A stretch of DNA of 64,000 bases, taken from positions 1 through 64,000 of the IMG/VR virus record IMGVR_UViG_3300036832_001118. The stretch is one strand, 5' to 3'. The notes beneath the pieces were generated by a model. That model did not search any database, was not told the origin of the DNA, and was given only the letters and a program-made list of their open reading frames with translations. The position numbers and the translations under genes are program-made. Of the stretch, positions 464 to 42,233 are shown in pieces (positions within the stretch are counted from its first letter, which is position 1; each line of letters begins with the position of its first letter). The DNA is from a virus.

Positions 464-507
464 GGGTCCCATATTTCGCTCCTTAATACGCAATGGGTCC
501 CATATTT
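464..507 (+). repeat. Pair of 13-bp direct repeats before the recombinase gene
   Basis: GGGTCCCATATTT occurs at 464-476 and again at 495-507, 31 bases apart start to start. The second copy ends one base before the GAGGA ribosome binding site of the recombinase gene (start 517). The spacing is about three helical turns, so a protein could bind both on one face. They may be autoregulatory or recombination sites of the recombinase; this is an inference. Confidence 0.45.
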
Positions 508-516
508 GAGGATGTT

Positions 517-1104
517 ATGCGTGCAGTTCTCTACTTACGCGTCAGTACGAAGGATCAGGACACCGACAATCAGGAGCGGGAGCTTCGGGTTGCGGCGGCT
601 CGATTGGGTCATGAGATCATTAATATTTACCGGGATCATGGGATCAGCGGTGCCAAGGGTCGAGACAGGCGGCCTGGGTTTGACCAACTGCACCGGGACG
701 CCAGCCGCGGGAAATTCGACCTCGTCATGGCCTGGTCGGTGGATCGGCTGGGCCGCAGCGTACAGGACCTTGTATCCTTCTTAGTTCATCTTCATTCCAC
801 GCGCACTGGGCTTTATTTGCATCAGCAGGGGCTGGACACGACGACGCCTGCGGGCCGGGCGATGTTTCAGATGCTGGGTGTATTTGCTGAGTTTGAGCGT
901 GAGATCATACGTGAGCGGGTGAATGCGGGGATGGCGCGGGCGCGGGCGAGTGGCACGCGCTCTGGCAAGGCGATAGGTCGGCCTGGGGTTCACATTGAGA
1001 CGGTTGACGCCATTCGGGCGGCGCGGGGGACTGGCACGATTCGGGAGCTGGCGTTGAGGTTTAACATCAGCAAGAGCGCGGTGGCGCGGGTGTTGGCGGA
1101 TTAG
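517..1104 (+). CDS. Serine site-specific recombinase (resolvase/invertase family)
   Basis: This 195-residue protein is a small serine recombinase, which cuts and rejoins DNA through a serine attached to the 5' phosphate. The N-terminal catalytic domain shows YLRVST with nucleophile Ser10, the DRLGRS motif at about 76-81, and FEREIIRERV at about 126-135. A short helix-turn-helix ends the protein (about 172-193). The length matches resolvases and Hin/Gin invertases, not the large serine integrases. I start it at the ATG at 517, with GAGGA at 508-512; an upstream in-frame ATG at 493 lies within the direct repeat and has no good binding site. It could resolve multimers of a plasmid-like phage, or invert or excise DNA. 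No inverted target genes are visible here. Confidence 0.9.
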   Translation: MRAVLYLRVSTKDQDTDNQERELRVAAARLGHEIINIYRDHGISGAKGRDRRPGFDQLHRDASRGKFDLVMAWSVDRLGRSVQDLVSFLVHLHSTRTGLYLHQQGLDTTTPAGRAMFQMLGVFAEFEREIIRERVNAGMARARASGTRSGKAIGRPGVHIETVDAIRAARGTGTIRELALRFNISKSAVARVLAD

Positions 1105-6691: not shown

Positions 6692-8173
6692 ATGCACGGC
6701 ACGCAGCTGCCGCAGGAGTTGACACCCGAGGACCTGAAGCTCATTGCGACTGCGTCGGAAGCCCGCTCCGCGATCGAGGCGCGGGAGAAGTTCTACGCCT
6801 TCCGCCGTTACATGCGCCCGGACATGAAGTGGAATTGGTGGACCCAGGTGGTGTGCCTGGAGTTGCAGCAGTTCTACAACGACATGATGGCGGGCAAGCG
6901 ACCGAAGATGGCGCTGATGGCGCCGCCGCAGCACGGCAAGAGTTGGGCGGCGCAGGACTTCATGGCTTGGGTGGCGGGCGCCAACCCGGACCTGAAGATC
7001 ATCTTTGCCAGCTATTCGGATGATCTCGGCATCACCTCCAATGCCAACCTGCAGCGACTGATCAAGGCGGACAAGTATCGGCGCGCGTTCCCGCAAACGC
7101 GCATCGATGTGCAAGGCTGGGCCTGTAATCAGAGTTTGATTGAATTTGTTGAGAAGCGCGGTAGTTTCCGGAACACCACGGTCGACGGCCCGATCAACGG
7201 CATGGAATTGCATCTCGGCGTGATTGATGATCCGCACAAGGGTCGCGCCGAGGCGATGAGCAAGGCGGTGCGCGAGAAGACCTGGAGCTGGTTTGTTGAT
7301 GATTTTGGTGCCCGCTTTGCCGCCAATTCCGGCATGCTGATTTTGATGACCAGGTGGCATGTTGATGATTTGTTAGGTCGCTATTTGGAGAAGTTTCCGC
7401 AGACTAAGATTGTGCGCTTCCCGGCCATCGCCGAGGATGACGAGTATTGTAATCCGAGCGAGCCCAACACCCCGACCCGTAAACGCGGCGCGGCGCTGTT
7501 TCCGGCGGTGAAGCCACTCAAGTTCTTGCTCGAACGCAAGACCCTGATGACCGAGACGTCATGGGAGTCGGAGTATCAACAACATCCAATTGTTGTTGGT
7601 GGCGGCATCTTCCCGATCGACAAGCTCACCACCTTGGGCATCTTTGATCGCAACGAGGTGAAACAGACGGTGCGCTACTGGGATAAAGCCGGGACCGAGG
7701 GCGGCGAGGGCGCCTATACGGCCGGTGTGCTGATGCATGCGATGAAGAACAAGAGTTACGTTATTGCCCATGTGGTGCGCGGGCGCTGGGGCGCGCTCGA
7801 GCGCGAGGACCAGATCCGCGCCTGGGCCAAGATCGATCGCGACAACTGGGGCTGGGGCTACGAGGTTTACGTCGAGCAGGAGCCGGGCTCCGGCGGCAAG
7901 GAAAGTGCTGAGGCCACCATCCGCGAGCTGCGCGGGTTTAGGGTCTTTGCTGACCGGGTCACCGGCAAGAAGGAGATCAGGGCCGAGCCGTTCGCCGCGC
8001 AAGTGCAGGGCGGCAACGTGCGATTACTTGCCGGTACCTGGCAGGGCGACCTGCTGGCCGAGCTCGAGGCCTTTCCCAACGGCAAATACAAGGATCAGGT
8101 CGATGCCTGCTCCGGCGCCTTCGCCAAGCTGACGGGTGATGGCTACTACAATATCGACGCGCTAGCGAGCTAA
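6692..8173 (+). CDS. terL: Terminase large subunit
   Basis: This 493-residue motor packages phage DNA into the prohead and cuts it. The ATPase domain carries Walker A APPQHGKSW (K83), Walker B VIDD at about 177-180 with acidic D179/D180, and an RWH coupling segment (TRWHVDDLLGRY). The RNase-H-like nuclease domain starts at RYWDKAGTEGG (D331) and continues with VYVEQEPGSGG and DQVDACSGAF, which supply the usual acidic metal ligands. The length is normal for the terminase-6 type. No small subunit is recognisable next to it. The start at 6692 has AAAGGA upstream. Confidence 0.92.
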   Translation: MHGTQLPQELTPEDLKLIATASEARSAIEAREKFYAFRRYMRPDMKWNWWTQVVCLELQQFYNDMMAGKRPKMALMAPPQHGKSWAAQDFMAWVAGANPDLKIIFASYSDDLGITSNANLQRLIKADKYRRAFPQTRIDVQGWACNQSLIEFVEKRGSFRNTTVDGPINGMELHLGVIDDPHKGRAEAMSKAVREKTWSWFVDDFGARFAANSGMLILMTRWHVDDLLGRYLEKFPQTKIVRFPAIAEDDEYCNPSEPNTPTRKRGAALFPAVKPLKFLLERKTLMTETSWESEYQQHPIVVGGGIFPIDKLTTLGIFDRNEVKQTVRYWDKAGTEGGEGAYTAGVLMHAMKNKSYVIAHVVRGRWGALEREDQIRAWAKIDRDNWGWGYEVYVEQEPGSGGKESAEATIRELRGFRVFADRVTGKKEIRAEPFAAQVQGGNVRLLAGTWQGDLLAELEAFPNGKYKDQVDACSGAFAKLTGDGYYNIDALAS

Positions 8174-9349: not shown

Positions 9350-9562
9350 ATGCGTCGGCAGCGCAGGTTGCTGTTGGCGGTGGCGATCCTGCAGCAGCCG
9401 TGGTTCATCTGGCACGGCGCCGTGTGTCTGCCGCCGGTGCGGCCGCTCTATGCCTATGGCATCGTCTACCCCAACCAGATGACCGGGCAGACGTTCTGCT
9501 ATGCCACCATCAACTTGGGAAGGCGATCTGTAGCCCATGGCAATCCCCACGGACGGCGTTGA
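9350..9562 (+). CDS. Hypothetical protein (70 aa)
   Basis: It begins MRRQRRLLLAVAILQQPWFI, a basic and hydrophobic start that could be a short signal or anchor, followed by CLPPVRPLYAYGIVYPNQMT. The last nine codons overlap the next gene. No family recognised, and the Arg-rich end suggests the true product may be shorter. Confidence 0.4.
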   Translation: MRRQRRLLLAVAILQQPWFIWHGAVCLPPVRPLYAYGIVYPNQMTGQTFCYATINLGRRSVAHGNPHGRR

Positions 9563-9962
9563 GATTGTCCCACGGCTGTGGATTGGATCGAACAAGACTT
9601 GCGACGCGCTGCGGCAGCAAATCAACTTTGTCTGCATCAACGTCGACCAGCAATCGCATACGGTTGACCAGCGCTGCAATTTCATCCCGATTTGCGGCGC
9701 AAACGGGTTCGTTGACTATGACGCGTTGACCCGCATCGAGCGGCGGCTGTTTGCGCAATGGCCGAGTAACGGCAGCGCATTGATCCACGGTATTCAAGGG
9801 CTCACTTACTCGCCGCTGGCGATGGCCCTGTACCTACAGGCGCGTTATTCGATCAGCCTGCAGCAGGCCTACGCGTGGGTGCTGGCCAAGCAGCCGCAAG
9901 CACAGGACCTAAGCCGCCTGGCGGCGCCGGTCGCCACCAACACCGCCTGGGCGGGTGGTTAG
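9537..9962 (+). CDS. Dual-specificity-phosphatase-like protein lacking the catalytic Cys and Arg
   Basis: The 141-residue product follows the dual-specificity phosphatase pattern. EIVPRLWIGSNKTCDALRQ matches the family's opening strand and turn, INFVCINVDQ the next strand, and SPLAMALYLQARYSISLQQA, then YAWVLAKQPQ, the helices after the active-site loop. The loop itself should read HCxxGxxRS. Here residues 84-92 read HGIQGLTYS, so catalytic Cys is Gly85 and the phosphate-binding Arg is Tyr91, with His84, Gly88 and Ser92 kept. It should be unable to catalyse, like the eukaryotic pseudophosphatase STYX, where Cys is also Gly. It may bind a phosphorylated partner. The fold is inferred by pattern, not by search. 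Confidence 0.6.
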   Translation: MAIPTDGVEIVPRLWIGSNKTCDALRQQINFVCINVDQQSHTVDQRCNFIPICGANGFVDYDALTRIERRLFAQWPSNGSALIHGIQGLTYSPLAMALYLQARYSISLQQAYAWVLAKQPQAQDLSRLAAPVATNTAWAGG

Positions 9963-9974
9963 GGAGAACCCAAA

Positions 9975-10223
9975 ATGAGCCTCATCACCGCGCTGGTCTA
10001 TATCATCATCACGCTGATCGTGGTCGGCGTGATCTTCTGGGCGATACAGACCCTGCTGCCATTGATCCCGCTGCCGGAGCCGTTCCGCCGGGTCATCTAC
10101 GTATTGTTAGTGGTGATTATGGTTATCATCGTTCTTTACGTCATTCTGCAACTTTTGGGTTTTGCGGGCAGCGTGCGCATCGGCCGCATCGGCCTCACCT
10201 ATATGCTGACGGTGGTGACATGA
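9975..10223 (+). CDS. Two-helix membrane protein (82 aa)
   Basis: Two long hydrophobic helices, LVYIIITLIVVGVIFWAIQT (about 6-25) and VIYVLLVVIMVIIVLYVILQ (about 40-59), are joined by LLPLIPLPEPFRR. Small proteins with this layout are widespread in proteobacteria and phages. It starts at ATG 9975 with GGAGA upstream and is coupled to the next gene by ATGA. It could act at the inner membrane; a holin role is possible but the lysis genes lie elsewhere. Confidence 0.6.
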   Translation: MSLITALVYIIITLIVVGVIFWAIQTLLPLIPLPEPFRRVIYVLLVVIMVIIVLYVILQLLGFAGSVRIGRIGLTYMLTVVT

Positions 10224-32892: not shown

Positions 32893-33402
32893 GTGAGCCA
32901 TATCATAGGCTTAATAGGAGAGCGCTTCGGGCGTCTATTGGTCATTGCCAGGGGCCCAAGCACTAAAGTTAACGGTTTTGCTTGTTGGGCTTGTCAGTGC
33001 GATTGCGGCAAGGTCACGGTCGTTAGCGGCATTAACCTACGGAATGGTCAGACCCGCTCCTGTGGATGTCTTAGGAAAGAAATGCTTGACGCCGGATTAC
33101 ATGTCACTCACGGGAATCGTCGCGGCCGTAAATCAACGCCAGAATATCAAACTTGGCTTGAGATGATGCGCCGTTGTTACAATCCGAACTTCATTGGTTT
33201 CAAAGATTACGGGGGTCGAGGTATTCGAGTTTGCAGAAAGTGGCGCCGGTCATTTGAGGCGTTTCTTGCTGATGTAGATAGGCGCCCGTCGCCTGAATAC
33301 TCGATAGATCGTATCAACAACAACGGAAATTACGAGCCCGGCAACGTGCGTTGGGCTACGCGTAAAGAACAAGCAAACAATAGACGACCGCGGACAAAGT
33401 AA
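32893..33402 (+). CDS. HNH-type homing endonuclease-like protein with N-terminal zinc ribbon
   Basis: The 169-residue product starts at GTG 32893. Residues 1-60 hold a zinc-ribbon-like domain (GERFGRLLVIARGP, WACQCDCGK, TRSCGCLRKE). The core ([62 protein letters not shown]) matches the protein at 3008, which instead has an AP2-like C-terminal domain. The gene sits alone between sheath and tube with its own hairpin and terminator, as expected of a mobile insertion. Cleavage activity is inferred from the family. Confidence 0.75.
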   Translation: MSHIIGLIGERFGRLLVIARGPSTKVNGFACWACQCDCGKVTVVSGINLRNGQTRSCGCLRKEMLDAGLHVTHGNRRGRKSTPEYQTWLEMMRRCYNPNFIGFKDYGGRGIRVCRKWRRSFEAFLADVDRRPSPEYSIDRINNNGNYEPGNVRWATRKEQANNRRPRTK

Positions 33403-34653: not shown

Positions 34654-37600
34654 ATGGACGACATCCTCGCCAGCGCTCAAGTTGTTTTGGAAGGCGTTGA
34701 CAAAGTCAGTCCTGCTGCGACCTCGAGTATAGACGCGCTCAAACGGCTCGCCGCGACTGGCGCTGATGTACAACGGCAGCTGATCAATGCCGCACAGAAC
34801 CATCAGCAAACGCTGCAAGTCCTTAATAAAATTTATGCGCAGAACCAGCAGGCGGCACAAGCCGCGGGTACGGGAGCGACCCAAGCCGCCAATGCAGCAT
34901 CTCAGGCGGTTCAGAAGCATACGCAAACGGTCCAACAAGTACCTCCCGCACTTAATGCGGCGGGACGTGCCGCCAATCAGCTGCAGAAACAACTGACGGA
35001 TGCGTTCTCGGTCTATGCGATTGAGGAGTTCATTCGCAAGTCTTACATGGCTTTCACCAGCCAAGAATTGGCGATGCGTAGAGTTCAACTCGCCGCTGGC
35101 GGCACGACAGAGGAGATCAACAAGGTACACCGGGGACTGCACGATATAGCCACCGAAACTAACCAAGCGACCGAGAATATGGCCAAGGCGTTTCGCGACT
35201 TTCAGGCCCGATCCGGGCTGGGCTATGGTGAGGCAGTAAAGGCGTTTAGGGCCGTGGCTGATGCCGCTGATTTGGCTGGCGTCCACGTTGACGCGATGTC
35301 GCGCGTTGCCACGGCGGCGATGGCGCAGTTGAACATCAACGACAAGGAATTGTCGCAGCTCATGGGAGCTTTTGGCAAAGCCTTCGCCGGAATGGGCAGT
35401 GAAGCTTTGCATGTCATGCCGAATATCATTGCCTTGATGCAGCGGCTTCATATCACCGGAAAGGATGCGCTTGAAGGAGTTGCTGCTGCTATCCAGGCTA
35501 CAGGCAAGCTACAGGGCTCAGCTGAGGGGGCCGCGCGCGGGTATCAGGCCATCGTCGACCTGGCGTCTCGTCCAGATACTAGGCTGGGTTATGTACTTCA
35601 AGACAAAGTTCAAGCCGTTGCGGATCATATTGGCGACACTACCGATTTATACGCGGCTGCCCTTGAGAAGATGCGAGAGGAATGGAAGAAGACTGGCGGC
35701 AATTTTCGCAGCGAGATGATGCAATTGAATTTAATGTTTGAGGGCAACCAAGACGCAATACAAACGGCCCGAGCTGCCATGAAGTTATCCGATGAGGAAT
35801 TTAAAAAATACATTCAAGACTTGAAGGAAAAAATGGCGACAGAAAAAGAAGCCGCAAAGCTACATGAAGAGACCATGAGAGGAGCAATCGACGGAACGCG
35901 TAAGCTCATTGGCGCCTGGAATGATTTGGAACTTTCGATCGGCGGGCTCCTGGATAAGCTGGGCGCAACCGACAGTCTGAATAGTACCGTCACTGATTTG
36001 AAGAAGCTCACGGAATTGCTTGAGTGGCTAGATAAGTTCATGAAAGAGCATATGAGTATGGGAGGGCTCGGCGGTGTAACAAGTGGATTTGGTCTCGGGA
36101 CGCGGTTTCGCGAGCATATTTTAAGTCTTCCTCCCGCCTTCAGCATGGGCACCCCGGCGCCGCCGAGAATGCAATCTGGCGGCGTTGTCACTGAACCAAC
36201 CGTCGCAATGATCGGCGAGGCTGGGCCCGAAGCGGTCGTGCCGCTCGGCGGTGGTGGCGCTGATATGCGTGGCGCTGACGGCGGCACTCAAGCCGAGCGT
36301 GAGGCGGCCGAGATGTGGGGACGTCTGCATGGTCTGGCCGGAGCGCGCCACAAGCACGTCGATCTGAAGGGCCAACTCAGCCAAGAGGAATTGGACAAGA
36401 TCCTGCAAGCTGAGGGAGGTGGCGGCCCTGGTGGTGGCGGCCGTGACACCGGGTGGGGACCGGGGAGTGGACGCGGGGGAACCAGAGGGGACGGCACCTC
36501 TCGTGGTGACGGCAGAACTGACGACAATAGAACTTCCGATGTGAAGCCGCCTCCAGCGGCAGCGCCACTGCCAACGCAAGGCGCGGCTGGCATCCCTGGG
36601 TTACCCGGCAGCCCATCCGGTCCAGCGCTGACGCCTGAAGAGCGCAAAGCGGCGGGGGCGCCGAGCGGTGGAACAGGAGGAGAATTTCAAGCCGGTGGAA
36701 AGTACTCAAAATCACAGCAGGCGGCCATCAATGCCGTTGTAAATGAATGGCGCAAGGCTGGAATGTCTGATGTTGGCATTGCAGGTGTTCTTGCCAACAT
36801 TCGTGAGGAATCTACATTTGATCCAACTTTGCGACATCCCGATCAGCCAAAATACGGCGGTGAAGCGCATTTTGCGCATGGCTTGTATCAGGAAGGCGGC
36901 GCTGAATGGAATAACTACGTAAGTTGGATGCAGCGGAATTATCCAAAAGGCGATTGGCGTGATCCGAAATTGCAAAGTGAATTTGCTGCTAAGAATTTGC
37001 GCGAAGGGATAGGCGACGCGCGTTATAAGGCAGTTTGGGAAAGGATGAAAAATGCCAAGACGCCAGCGGAAGCAGCAGCGGCTTATGTTGAAGGTTATTT
37101 GAAACCTGCCGCAAAATATCGAGAAAAACGCGTTCGTGAGTTCAGGGCCGGTGGCGCTCCCGGTTTAGAGACATATGGAACCGGAACTGGTGGCCCCGCT
37201 GAGATAGCGCGACCCGACTTGCCGCCGATAGGTCAGGTCGCCGGGCTGCCGGGTGGGCCGTCTGGTCCGAGCCTGACGCCGGAACAAAGGAAAGCGGCTG
37301 CGACTGGTGGCGGTGGGGGCGGCGGCGAGGGTGGTGGCAGTGTGATCTCTCCATTCCCAGGCGCTCATGGGTTTGGAATCGGGTCTAGCAATGTTTATGG
37401 AGCAGGCAGAAGCGGAGGGCGCCGAGCGCATTCAGGTAATGATCTTCATGCCGGTGATAGTCCGGGGTCGACTCCGAATGGCACGCCTGTAGTGTCAATG
37501 ACTGGTGGTACGGTTCTCTACAACGGCAGGAATTCGGGATATGGAGCAAATATTGTCATCAGGGGCGATGACGGCATTATTCGTAGATACGCAGTTCATG

Positions 37601-38733
37601 GAAGTACTGCGGATCTAAAGCCGGGAGCGCATGTTGATCAGGGGCAGTTCATTGGTCGCATTGGGGAGAACCATCTCCATTACGAGGAAATTCCGCCTAC
37701 CAGAAATGGTAGGGACAATCCAGTCTATCATGAATTTGAGAGAAATGCGAGGACCAATACATTTACCAACACAGCAAACCAAAGAGGAACCGTTGATCCT
37801 TCTGGCCCCCACGGATCATTGCAGAACATAGGCAAGAAAAAAGAGCAGGTCGACCAAGCAACCGGCCCGACGAAGCCTGGCGGCAAGGGCACCAAGCTCT
37901 TCATTCATGGAATGAATTATGAGCGCTTTGGTGACGCCAGCAAGATACAAGATGAGATCGAAGCGGATGTGCGGCGTCAAGCAGCGGCCGAGGGTTACGA
38001 CAACGTAGAGTTTGTTCGCGGCAGCAATAACCAGCAAAAAATTGCTGAGGCCGATGCGCGTCTGAAGAAAGGGGGTATCACGAAGGTTGATGGCTTCTCG
38101 CAGGGTGGCTACATTATCAATAATCACCTGCGAAAGAGATATCCAAAAATTGCTATGACGGATTATGGTGCCACAAAAAGTGGCGCTGATCCTAATTTCC
38201 CTGGCGTCAAACATATGCAGTTGCCGAAGGCGGCGGCTGATAGAGCTGTCGAAGAGCGTAAGGCGCGCGAGGCCAAGGCGGCACCAGCGCCTGCTGTCCG
38301 CAGCGCTGAAGTTGAGCGCGGTGAGGCAGCTGGCCTACAGGCGCGCCTCGCCCAGGCTGACAAGGAAGCGGCGGCAGCTAAGCCCAAGAAGGAAGCGGCA
38401 GGACCGCCGCTAGCATTGAAGACGGCTAAGGCGATGGCCGAGGGCGGCATCGTCACGCGACCGACCGATGCGCTCGTTGGCGAGGCGGGTCCCGAGGCGA
38501 TCATTCCGCTGGACGGTGGCGGCTCAAGTAGTTTGGACATTGACAGTTTGCTCCGGCAACACGCCGAGTTGCAGGCACATATGAACCAAAATCCGATCGA
38601 GGTGCCGATGGCTGAGCCGCATCGCATGGGGGGCGGTCGCCAACCGTTCGGTCGCATGATTGAGATGTCGCGACGTAAGACCGAAGCGCGCCGCACGGCA
38701 CATGAAGTGCCGCTCGATACAGGGCCGATGTAA
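34654..38733 (+). CDS. Tape measure protein 1 with lysozyme, M23 peptidase and esterase-like domains
   Basis: The 1359-residue protein sets tail length and is delivered with the DNA. Residues 1-480 are long helices. The motif GEAGPEAVVPL and its repeat near the end (GEAGPEAIIPL) are tape-measure hallmarks. Residues about 684-831 resemble phage tail lysozyme (GVLANIREESTFDP with probable catalytic Glu). Residues about 896-1020 are an M23 metallopeptidase with zinc ligands His926 and Asp930 (HSGND) and HLH at 1007-1009, plus His982. Residues about 1078-1200 look like an alpha/beta hydrolase: TKLFIHGMN and GFSQGG with nucleophile Ser1149. These would open peptidoglycan, and possibly an ester bond, during entry. 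A paralogue follows at 38733. Confidence 0.85.
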   Translation: MDDILASAQVVLEGVDKVSPAATSSIDALKRLAATGADVQRQLINAAQNHQQTLQVLNKIYAQNQQAAQAAGTGATQAANAASQAVQKHTQTVQQVPPALNAAGRAANQLQKQLTDAFSVYAIEEFIRKSYMAFTSQELAMRRVQLAAGGTTEEINKVHRGLHDIATETNQATENMAKAFRDFQARSGLGYGEAVKAFRAVADAADLAGVHVDAMSRVATAAMAQLNINDKELSQLMGAFGKAFAGMGSEALHVMPNIIALMQRLHITGKDALEGVAAAIQATGKLQGSAEGAARGYQAIVDLASRPDTRLGYVLQDKVQAVADHIGDTTDLYAAALEKMREEWKKTGGNFRSEMMQLNLMFEGNQDAIQTARAAMKLSDEEFKKYIQDLKEKMATEKEAAKLHEETMRGAIDGTRKLIGAWNDLELSIGGLLDKLGATDSLNSTVTDLKKLTELLEWLDKFMKEHMSMGGLGGVTSGFGLGTRFREHILSLPPAFSMGTPAPPRMQSGGVVTEPTVAMIGEAGPEAVVPLGGGGADMRGADGGTQAEREAAEMWGRLHGLAGARHKHVDLKGQLSQEELDKILQAEGGGGPGGGGRDTGWGPGSGRGGTRGDGTSRGDGRTDDNRTSDVKPPPAAAPLPTQGAAGIPGLPGSPSGPALTPEERKAAGAPSGGTGGEFQAGGKYSKSQQAAINAVVNEWRKAGMSDVGIAGVLANIREESTFDPTLRHPDQPKYGGEAHFAHGLYQEGGAEWNNYVSWMQRNYPKGDWRDPKLQSEFAAKNLREGIGDARYKAVWERMKNAKTPAEAAAAYVEGYLKPAAKYREKRVREFRAGGAPGLETYGTGTGGPAEIARPDLPPIGQVAGLPGGPSGPSLTPEQRKAAATGGGGGGGEGGGSVISPFPGAHGFGIGSSNVYGAGRSGGRRAHSGNDLHAGDSPGSTPNGTPVVSMTGGTVLYNGRNSGYGANIVIRGDDGIIRRYAVHGSTADLKPGAHVDQGQFIGRIGENHLHYEEIPPTRNGRDNPVYHEFERNARTNTFTNTANQRGTVDPSGPHGSLQNIGKKKEQVDQATGPTKPGGKGTKLFIHGMNYERFGDASKIQDEIEADVRRQAAAEGYDNVEFVRGSNNQQKIAEADARLKKGGITKVDGFSQGGYIINNHLRKRYPKIAMTDYGATKSGADPNFPGVKHMQLPKAAADRAVEERKAREAKAAPAPAVRSAEVERGEAAGLQARLAQADKEAAAAKPKKEAAGPPLALKTAKAMAEGGIVTRPTDALVGEAGPEAIIPLDGGGSSSLDIDSLLRQHAELQAHMNQNPIEVPMAEPHRMGGGRQPFGRMIEMSRRKTEARRTAHEVPLDTGPM
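35017..35060 (+). repeat. 44-bp tract shared with the second tape measure (copy 1)
   Basis: This stretch, encoding AIEEFIRKSYMAFT, is identical base for base to 39096-39139 in the second tape measure, while flanking codons differ. It points to recent gene conversion or recombination between the two genes. Confidence 0.9.
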
Positions 38734-41700
38734 TGGATGAAGTTGTCGGCAGCGCCAAGGTTGTTCTGGAGGGTATCGATAAGATTAGCCCTGCCGTAAC
38801 AACCAGTATCGATACACTTAAAAAGTGGGCGGCAAGTGGCGCCGATGTGCAACGGCAGTTGATCCAGGCTGCGCAGAAGCATCAACAAACACTGCAAGTG
38901 CTTAACCAGATCTACGCACAGAACCAACAAGCCGCACAAGCTGCAGGCGGCGCAACGACACAAGCGTTCAATGCAGGAACGCAGGCGGCTCAGCAATTAA
39001 CGCAGGCGGTTCAGAAAGTGCCGCCCTCACTTATTAATATCGGACAGGCCGGCGCCGTCTTACAAAAACAAGTCGCCGGCTATTTCTCGATCTACGCGAT
39101 TGAGGAGTTCATTCGCAAGTCTTACATGGCTTTCACCAGTCATGAAGAACATATGCGGCGAATTCAACTCGCCTTTGGCGGTACCACAGAGGAGATCAAA
39201 AAACTACATGGTGAACTGAGTAGCCTGGCGGCAGCGGTCGGGTCAACAACAGAGAAGATGACTGACGACCTCCGTGCGTTTATGGCCGGTTCAGGACTTG
39301 GACGCGGCGAGGCACTGGAGGCGTTCAAGGGTATTGCCATGGCGGCCGACGAGGCCGGCATTCACGTGCAGGATATGTCACGCATTGCCACAATGGCAAT
39401 GGCACAGCTGCAAATTAGCACGCGAGAGATGCCCCAGTTAATGGGGTCAATGGGTAAGGCTTTCGCTGAAATGGGCGCTGCGGCCGCGCGCGTCCTGCCG
39501 AATATCATCACTTTGATGCAGCAGATCGGCCTTACAGGCAAAGCCAATCTGCAAGCCGCCTTGGCCATCGCCGAGGTCAGCACAAAAGCTACCGGCGACG
39601 CAGAGATTTCTTGGCGTAATCTGCAGACCATATTGCAGCAAATGGGCGATCCCGAAAGCAAATTGAATCGTCAGGCGGCGGATAGGTTCGACGCTTTCAA
39701 ACAGAATATTGGCGATACCATCGATGCATACATGATTGCCGTTGATTGGACGCGGGATGTTATGAAGCGGCATCCCGACATCCGCAGCGTAAACGCTGAA
39801 ATGGATTGGATGTTTGGCCATAATGTGCAGCTGCAGGAACAGTTAAAACACGATGCGGCAGTCGAGCGGGATGAGTTATATAAAACATTACGGGCCCAGA
39901 AGGATGCGCTCGGTAATGTCAAGGAGATCGATGAGGCGCATCAAAAGTTTGTAAAGGGCTCAATAGATGGAACGCGTCGGCTCTCGCAAGCTTTGATCGA
40001 CGTGGCAGTATCGGCCGGTGGATTTCTTGATTCGATTGGCATGACTGATACTTTGCATAGCACTGTTACCGACCTGCAACATCTCAAAGAACTCATTGAA
40101 TGGTTTCAAGGGAAGAGTAAGGAGGGCGAAGACAAGGGCGGCGTTCCGAACGATGCTTCAGAGTACAGGGACATGCTGCGCCGCCGAATACACCCACCGG
40201 CTAAGCCAGAAATCAAGCCACATCAATCTGGTGGCGTTGTTAGTGAGCCGACCTTGGCAATGATCGGTGAGGCTGGGCCGGAAGCCGTGGTCCCGCTGAC
40301 ACGCGGCTTTGATATGCGCGGCGCCTCGGGCGGTACGCAGGCCGAGCGGGACGCCGGGACAATGTGGGCTCGCTTGCATGGTCTGGCACTAACGCGGACC
40401 AAGCATATCGATCTGCACGGGAAGCTGACGCAGGAAACCATCGACAAGCTGATGGGTGGCGGGGGCAGCTCTGGCGGAGGTGGCGCCAGCGGGGATTCCA
40501 GCGGGGCGAGCGGGACACCGACGGGGACAAGCAGCACGACGGGTGACAGCAAATCAACTGGCGATAGCAAGGCTGATACAGGCGGTACGCAACCGGCCCC
40601 GCCTGGGGCAGAGGGAACATTCCGACCTGTTTATAAACTAGGGGGTGCTGATCTCAGCGACGCCGTCGTCAATACGATTGCCGGCGAAGCTTACACCAAC
40701 AATCAAGAGAGCGTCGATGCTGTCATCAATAATATGCTGAATCGCGTCGGATCGAAAGGCTGGGGGCCATCCGGCGACATGCAACAGGTAGCACGCGCGC
40801 GCGGTCAATATGCTGGCTATCGTAAGGCCAATGCTAAAGAAGCTGAATTTATTCGTAACAGAATCAAAGCCATCGCGTCCGGTGGGGTTAAAGACAACAC
40901 TGGTGGATCAAACGAATATCGAGCAGGTTCCTACCGCGGGCCTTGGTATCAACATCATCGCGACGCACCAGTAGTTGGTGGCAATCGATTTGGCTTTAAT
41001 CCAAAAGTTTCAAATGGACCTTACGCTCCTTATCCAACCAAGATGATGGCCAAGGGCGGAATTGTTACGAAGCCTACGCTGGCGACGATCGGCGAGAATG
41101 GGCCAGAGGCCGTGGTGCCGCTCCAGGAGGTGGGTACAAAGGGGCAACAACAGCAGTTTTGGGGAATGCCGAGTGAGGGTGGAAAGGAGGGAGAAGCGGA
41201 TTTAGATCCAGTACGTGCATTAGCGTTCGAGAATGAAAAAATTTTAGGACAGCCTGGGCGTCATCGTGCTTCGCAGTGGCACGAGTGGTTGAAGCAAAAT
41301 CCCTATGGCCGTGGGGTAAGTGAGGGAGAAGCTATAGGTACCAATCCATTTGGGGTTCGACAAAAGGAGTATTTGAAACAGCTAGAACGTACAATGGAGG
41401 TACAGGGAGATAACCCTGATCTCGATAAGAGAGTCTTGGAAGATTTAGGCCCTCGTCCATCGCAAGCCAGCCTCACTGGTGGCGGCGGCTCTAGTGGTGG
41501 TGCCGGTGCCAGCATGAACTTCGGTGGTGGCTTTGGCGGCGGCGAAACATCTGCACCGGAAGGCTACACGCCGAGCGTGGCCAACATACATCCAAACGCT
41601 CATGGATTTCTTAACGCGATTGCTAGCACAGAGACAGACTTCAGCGAAAGAGAGGCTTACTCCGACGCGACTAACGTCAAGAGCTACGGCGGCAACACGT

Positions 41701-42233
41701 CGATGTACGATTACGGCTACTATCAGATGGCTCAGCGTGACATCGACTATGCTGTCAAAACTCTGCACATGTCTCCGGAGATAGCTCAGCATTTGACTGG
41801 TGGGCCTGATCATAAGAGTACGCTCGATCAGCAGACTGCTTCCGTTAATGAATATTTGCAGCGGCGTTATCCAGACGCTTATAGAAATCTAGTGGAGCGC
41901 GGTGACTATGAAGGCATGCGCCAGGCCACGAGGCATGGCAAAAGCTGGGTTTGGTTTGGCCTGAAAGACAAACCCAAGCAAGCTTTGACTGAGTACAACA
42001 AGGTCGCGCAGCCGCAGACCACGGCAGTGACGCCGCTGCCCAAGTCGCGACCGGCATCGGCGCAGGCAAGCGCACAGACCCACTTCAACAACAACCCGAT
42101 TCAGGTGCCGGTCGCCCCGGCCAAGCTTGGGGCACACCGCCAATCGTTTGCGCGCAGCGCTGGTTGGGCGCAGCGCAAGGCGCATGCCCGCAGCGCTCGA
42201 CAGGAAGCCACGGTTCATACCGGGGAGATGTAA
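38733..42233 (+). CDS. Tape measure protein 2 with two wall-hydrolase domains
   Basis: The start overlaps the stop of the first tape measure (TAATG). The 1166-residue protein repeats the layout of its neighbour: the first 460 residues align throughout (VLEGIDKISPAVTTSIDTLK against VLEGVDKVSPAATSSIDALK). After the GEAGPEAVVPL motif comes a SleB-like cell-wall hydrolase domain (VVNTIAGEAYTNNQESVDAV, with probable catalytic Glu652, then NNMLNRVG). Near residue 955-1080 a lysozyme-like domain has FLNAIASTETDF (probable Glu967) and YDYGYYQMAQRDIDYAVK. It lacks the M23 and esterase-like parts of tape measure 1. Confidence 0.8.
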   Translation: MDEVVGSAKVVLEGIDKISPAVTTSIDTLKKWAASGADVQRQLIQAAQKHQQTLQVLNQIYAQNQQAAQAAGGATTQAFNAGTQAAQQLTQAVQKVPPSLINIGQAGAVLQKQVAGYFSIYAIEEFIRKSYMAFTSHEEHMRRIQLAFGGTTEEIKKLHGELSSLAAAVGSTTEKMTDDLRAFMAGSGLGRGEALEAFKGIAMAADEAGIHVQDMSRIATMAMAQLQISTREMPQLMGSMGKAFAEMGAAAARVLPNIITLMQQIGLTGKANLQAALAIAEVSTKATGDAEISWRNLQTILQQMGDPESKLNRQAADRFDAFKQNIGDTIDAYMIAVDWTRDVMKRHPDIRSVNAEMDWMFGHNVQLQEQLKHDAAVERDELYKTLRAQKDALGNVKEIDEAHQKFVKGSIDGTRRLSQALIDVAVSAGGFLDSIGMTDTLHSTVTDLQHLKELIEWFQGKSKEGEDKGGVPNDASEYRDMLRRRIHPPAKPEIKPHQSGGVVSEPTLAMIGEAGPEAVVPLTRGFDMRGASGGTQAERDAGTMWARLHGLALTRTKHIDLHGKLTQETIDKLMGGGGSSGGGGASGDSSGASGTPTGTSSTTGDSKSTGDSKADTGGTQPAPPGAEGTFRPVYKLGGADLSDAVVNTIAGEAYTNNQESVDAVINNMLNRVGSKGWGPSGDMQQVARARGQYAGYRKANAKEAEFIRNRIKAIASGGVKDNTGGSNEYRAGSYRGPWYQHHRDAPVVGGNRFGFNPKVSNGPYAPYPTKMMAKGGIVTKPTLATIGENGPEAVVPLQEVGTKGQQQQFWGMPSEGGKEGEADLDPVRALAFENEKILGQPGRHRASQWHEWLKQNPYGRGVSEGEAIGTNPFGVRQKEYLKQLERTMEVQGDNPDLDKRVLEDLGPRPSQASLTGGGGSSGGAGASMNFGGGFGGGETSAPEGYTPSVANIHPNAHGFLNAIASTETDFSEREAYSDATNVKSYGGNTSMYDYGYYQMAQRDIDYAVKTLHMSPEIAQHLTGGPDHKSTLDQQTASVNEYLQRRYPDAYRNLVERGDYEGMRQATRHGKSWVWFGLKDKPKQALTEYNKVAQPQTTAVTPLPKSRPASAQASAQTHFNNNPIQVPVAPAKLGAHRQSFARSAGWAQRKAHARSARQEATVHTGEM
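39096..39139 (+). repeat. 44-bp tract shared with the first tape measure (copy 2)
   Basis: Identical to 35017-35060. See that entry. Confidence 0.9.

Follow-up and report, generated by a model that had tools for sequence, protein, structure and literature searches.

The locus considered here raises the question of what retains a phosphatase-like protein in a tailed phage once the residues needed for catalysis have been replaced. Most of the pseudophosphatases described so far belong to eukaryotes or to a small number of their viruses. The window, meaning the whole 64,000-nucleotide stretch of DNA under analysis, makes up the initial 64 kb of a virus record of 87,760 bases and carries, at positions 9537-9962 of the plus strand, an open reading frame for a 141-residue protein (ATG at 9537, stop codon at 9960-9962) whose codon composition looks coding, with a GC fraction of 0.77 at third and 0.46 at second positions. 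A first-pass annotation made from the sequence alone had proposed a phage-encoded pseudophosphatase of the dual-specificity (DSP) type here; its placement and frame, and the two sequences it quoted, IVPRLWIGS (residues 10-18; 9564-9590) and HGIQGLTYS (residues 84-92; 9786-9812), hold. The surroundings of the gene form the packaging and head module of a tailed phage, in which the terminase gene (6692-8173) is followed by a run of small genes and then by the pseudophosphatase gene, with a small membrane protein gene (9975-10223) and the portal gene (PF06381, 11065-12561) further on, and the DUF2213, cement and major capsid genes after the portal.

Relatives and predicted fold

Taken alone, the window protein matches the Pfam DSPc family (PF00782) below threshold (E=0.065, 13.5 bits against a cut-off of 33.5), and its match in the PDB is DUSP16 (E=0.0034). 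Its link to the DSPs becomes firm through an intact paralogue in a related phage, L004 (2127-2513), which shares 36% identity with the window protein, carries the loop HCGAGVERS and scores above the Pfam cut-off (DSPc E=2.8e-11). This homology chain rejects a chance resemblance to DSPs. The comparison set comprises five distinct proteins including that of the window, two intact and three dead, with L004 and L005 counted once as a single phage seen twice (2 mismatches in 20.8 kb). The closest member, from the IMG/VR phage L001, is 84% identical, occupies the same place in a phage whose terminase is 96% identical to that of the window's phage, and has the loop HCRIGLTYS. L004 encodes a dead copy as well (1220-1654; 43% identical to the window protein, loop HDLTGLGPS), lying one gene away from its intact copy, which is directly upstream of the terminase gene. 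The second intact protein, the single copy of L015 (7971-8363), also reads HCGAGVERS, shares about 34% of its residues with the window protein, and likewise comes from a record above the Pfam cut-off. Against the PDB, the two intact proteins match DUSP2, DUSP16, DUSP10 and VHR with E-values between 3e-9 and 4e-8, and a profile built from the five relatives reaches DUSP16 at 9e-10.

The gene is located between terminase and portal in the window's phage and L001, upstream of the terminase in L004 and downstream of the portal in L015, a varying place inside the head module that is as expected of an accessory gene. Searches with the terminase and with dead-only and intact-only alignments added nothing to these contigs but a single distant terminase; queries with the intact paralogue gave no relatives in isolated phages or plasmids, and two pattern scans of GTDB genomes gave candidate stretches and no relative. 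A match in Rhizobium phage RHph_N2/RHEph18 (28% identity, E=0.6) lies antisense to annotated genes and was dismissed as chance.

The AlphaFold2 model of the window protein (pLDDT 84, pTM 0.81) predicts a DSP fold. In Foldseek searches its best PDB match is DUSP16 (E=2e-7), and the top matches are dual-specificity phosphatases with TM scores of 0.6-0.7; 183 PDB chains were found at E<=0.001, of which the best 50, STYX (2r0b) among them, all belong to the dual-specificity type of Cys-based phosphatases. Model and fold matches of the dead L004 copy lead to the same result. Since the intact paralogues were part of the alignment from which the model was computed, the predicted fold is homology-supported rather than independent. 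The structure prediction that the first-pass annotation had proposed as a check thus returns a phosphatase fold and not an unrelated one, and two further details of that annotation agree with the model and the alignment. The opening IVPRLWIGS, said to fit the family, forms the N-terminal strands of the model, and its PRLWxG core is invariant in all five sequences; the segment after the loop forms two DSP-like helices at residues 93-124 (9813-9908; DSSP of the model), overlapping the stretch aligned to Pfam DSPc (residues 77-120).

Catalytic residues and selection

The window protein lacks the Cys and Arg of the HCX5R signature. Residue 85, Cys in both intact proteins, is Gly in the window protein, Asp in the dead copy of L004 and still Cys in L001, while residue 91, Arg in both intact proteins, is Tyr in the window protein and L001 and Pro in the dead L004 copy. 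The loss extends beyond the signature loop. The residue that serves as general acid in DUSP10 and DUSP2 corresponds in the alignments to position 55 or 56 (codons 9699-9704), where both intact paralogues have Asp-Asp, the window protein and L001 have Ala-Asn and the dead L004 copy has Ala-Asp; because both positions are replaced in the window protein, its general-acid Asp, expected about 30 residues before the Cys position, is gone whichever of the two is the true equivalent. The original description, in which the two catalytic residues and no others are lost, therefore has to be widened, as the acid is replaced too and the 84%-identical L001 protein retains its Cys. As for whether relatives keep Cys and Arg, the two intact proteins have both, L001 has the Cys only, and the dead L004 copy has neither. 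In a tree of the five sequences, the three dead proteins split from the two intact ones with 100% bootstrap. Because L001 still has the Cys, the simplest order of loss, drawn from these five sequences, would place the loss of Arg and Asp before that of Cys, the latter on at least two occasions.

What has been kept is equally well defined. In all five sequences, PRLWxG, C22, C33, H41, C47, H84, G88, S92 and P93 are unchanged, in line with the observation that the His, Gly and Ser of the loop stay in register. The cluster C22/C33/H41/C47 (9600-9677, first to last codon), which is common to intact and dead relatives and confined to one region of the sequence, could form a structural metal site.

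Selection was estimated from the one usable pair, the window gene and its L001 counterpart, which differ by 34 synonymous and 33 non-synonymous changes. The resulting dN/dS of 0.25 (bootstrap 95% interval 0.14-0.43) lies below all 2000 of 2000 neutral simulations, so the codon-level test suggested by the first-pass annotation indicates purifying selection on the protein for this pair. In comparison with values of 0.07 for the terminase, 0.09 for the portal and 0.18-0.42 for small neighbours, the gene appears constrained like the adjoining accessory genes and unlike the core. Within it, codons 85-87 are the most-changed three-codon stretch between the window and L001, with a chance of 0.0017 for a site chosen beforehand and of 0.20 for such a stretch anywhere in the gene. 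Three of the nine loop residues differ in this pair: conservation of the loop thus holds for H84, G88, L89, T90, Y91 and S92 and fails for residues 85-87. That the most rapidly changing codons should sit here despite purifying selection suggests that the protein is kept and the tip of the phosphate loop is not. Considered together, the reading frame, the relatives, the fold model and the purifying selection identify a DSP-fold gene, and the replacement of catalytic residues, the existence of intact homologues and the constraint on the remainder of the sequence support the designation as a pseudophosphatase.

Possible roles of the dead protein

The explanation we favour, and consider somewhat more likely than not, is that this is a catalytically dead DSP-fold protein of a tailed phage, derived from a duplicate of an active DSP and retained as a protein-binding domain. 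On this view an active phage DSP was duplicated and the duplicate was released from catalysis. Without nucleophile, arginine and general acid, the window protein should neither hydrolyse phosphate esters nor hold phosphate well, and what keeps the dead copy may be a surface that binds a protein partner. Binding other than through the phosphate pocket is preferred because Arg and the general acid are lost and the loop tip changes fast. The likeliest partner may be a target docked by the active copy, which the dead copy would compete for or sequester, or else the active phosphatase itself, with the dead copy as allosteric partner in the manner of MTMR13 for MTMR2; a stand-alone scaffold is a further option. 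A connection between dead and intact copies is favoured by the closeness of their genes in L004. An active partner is present in the same genome in L004/L005, whereas none was found elsewhere in the window's 87.8 kb record, which may be incomplete; the dead copy of the window's phage would accordingly have to work unaided, with a protein of the host or the phage as its target, and, if the record is near complete, a dead copy can persist by itself. A more elaborate and distinctly less probable version posits a two-component phage module, in which an active DSP is accompanied by a dead duplicate that regulates or competes with it; only the dead half would remain in the window's lineage, the Cys/Cys/His/Cys set might bind zinc, and the dead member would be a metal-stabilised binder of a host signalling or defence protein.

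The main competitor, an unlikely one in our assessment, is the sequestration proposed by the first-pass annotation, in which a dead loop of STYX type would still bind and shield a phosphorylated ligand. Retention of the loop His, Gly and Ser and the resemblance of the fold to STYX speak for it. However, a single Gly-to-Cys change reactivates STYX, so its Arg must be present (PMC8622459), whereas the phosphate-gripping Arg is Tyr in the window protein and L001 and Pro in the dead copy of L004, i.e., lost in all three dead proteins; the window protein also lacks the Asp, and residues 85-87 change fastest, so that phosphate binding without catalysis is not supported. The head-module position, which counts against the favoured explanation of a protein-binding domain, would also fit a virion or assembly component, with the DSP fold redeployed in a small head protein of structural or scaffolding function. 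In the window's phage, L001, L004 and L015 alike, the gene sits in or around the terminase-portal region, and in PDB entries DUSP3 and DUSP21 are structural constituents of the microtubule doublets of sperm. The gene is nevertheless missing from more distant relatives whose portal is about 41% identical, and its position shifts inside the module as that of accessory genes does, which makes a structural role rather improbable.

Decay of a functionless gene on its way to being lost after duplication could explain why the Cys position differs in each dead member, why the Arg position varies too and why the loop tip drifts. Such decay is hard to reconcile with a dN/dS of 0.25, with a frame unbroken in all three dead members, some of which are only 43% identical to each other, and with the constancy of C22, C33, H41, C47 and PRLWxG, and it is accordingly given little credence. 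Least plausible, and very improbable, is an enzyme that still works by another route, through a different nucleophile or reaction; the invariance of H84 and of several Cys and His residues could be read in this way, but neither nucleophile, Arg nor general acid is left and the tip of the CX5R loop is not conserved.

Comparison with known systems

Human STYX (PDB 2r0b) shares with the window protein the DSP fold and a Cys-to-Gly change at the same place of HCX5R, and STYX is described as lacking this cysteine only (PMC8622459). The rest of its catalytic site is in place, as its reactivation implies, whereas the phage protein has additionally exchanged Arg for Tyr and Asp for Ala/Asn. MTMR13 is the dead allosteric partner of active MTMR2 (PMC10211241), a dead homologue encoded with an active one, as in L004; that pair belongs to the eukaryotic myotubularin family and its interaction is shown, while the L004 pair is known by gene proximity alone. 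The bracovirus PTP family includes suggested pseudophosphatases, which have been proposed to disrupt host signalling (PMC4553618); they too are virus-encoded, but they belong to the PTP family and to viruses of parasitic wasps rather than to a bacterial virus. The active phage DSPs of L004 and L015 have C22/C33/H41/C47 and the head-module neighbourhood in common with the window protein and differ from it in their intact HCGAGVERS loop, their Asp-Asp pair and their scores above the Pfam DSPc cut-off. Phage DSPs as such are already catalogued in PHROGs (10650 and 32716, both "dual specificity phosphatase"). In the open-access journal literature searched, no paper was found on a pseudophosphatase in a bacterial virus, nor on a dead tailed-phage DSP with a related phage in which the intact paralogue lies close by. 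A single phage lineage contains DSP forms that are intact, half-dead (with the Cys but no Arg) and fully dead, two of them in one genome. On a small scale this natural series records the steps by which catalysis is lost from a DSP, and it puts the role of the dead copy within reach of straightforward deletion and pull-down experiments. The finding also hints that host protein phosphorylation matters to these phages.

Several other features of these phages may be recorded. The window's phage is probably temperate, because its record encodes a tyrosine integrase (PF00589, contig 66486-67607) and a serine recombinase (PF00239, window 493-1104). A HerA-like helicase gene (PF05872, E=1e-188) past the window, near the right end of the contig (82149-83471), possibly represents host DNA or an accessory system. 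In the tail module, two adjacent very long genes (34654-38733 and 38733-42233; 1359 and 1166 aa) whose motifs recall tape-measure proteins are 52% identical across their first ~580 residues, and their sequences indicate a tandem duplication, while a low-GC3 frame at 32893-33402 opens, by eye, like an AP2/HNH-type mobile endonuclease. An HNH endonuclease-like frame, also judged by eye, follows the terminase in L004 (4018-4476) and is missing at the corresponding position in the window. The dead phosphatase gene of L004 is closely preceded by an array of about 1 kb (L029 7612-8654, equivalent to L004 ~128-1204), in which degenerate 36-base units alternate between GTGCTCTC and GGCTCGCTC with variable spacers and which reads as an open LVLSxxxARS repeat frame.
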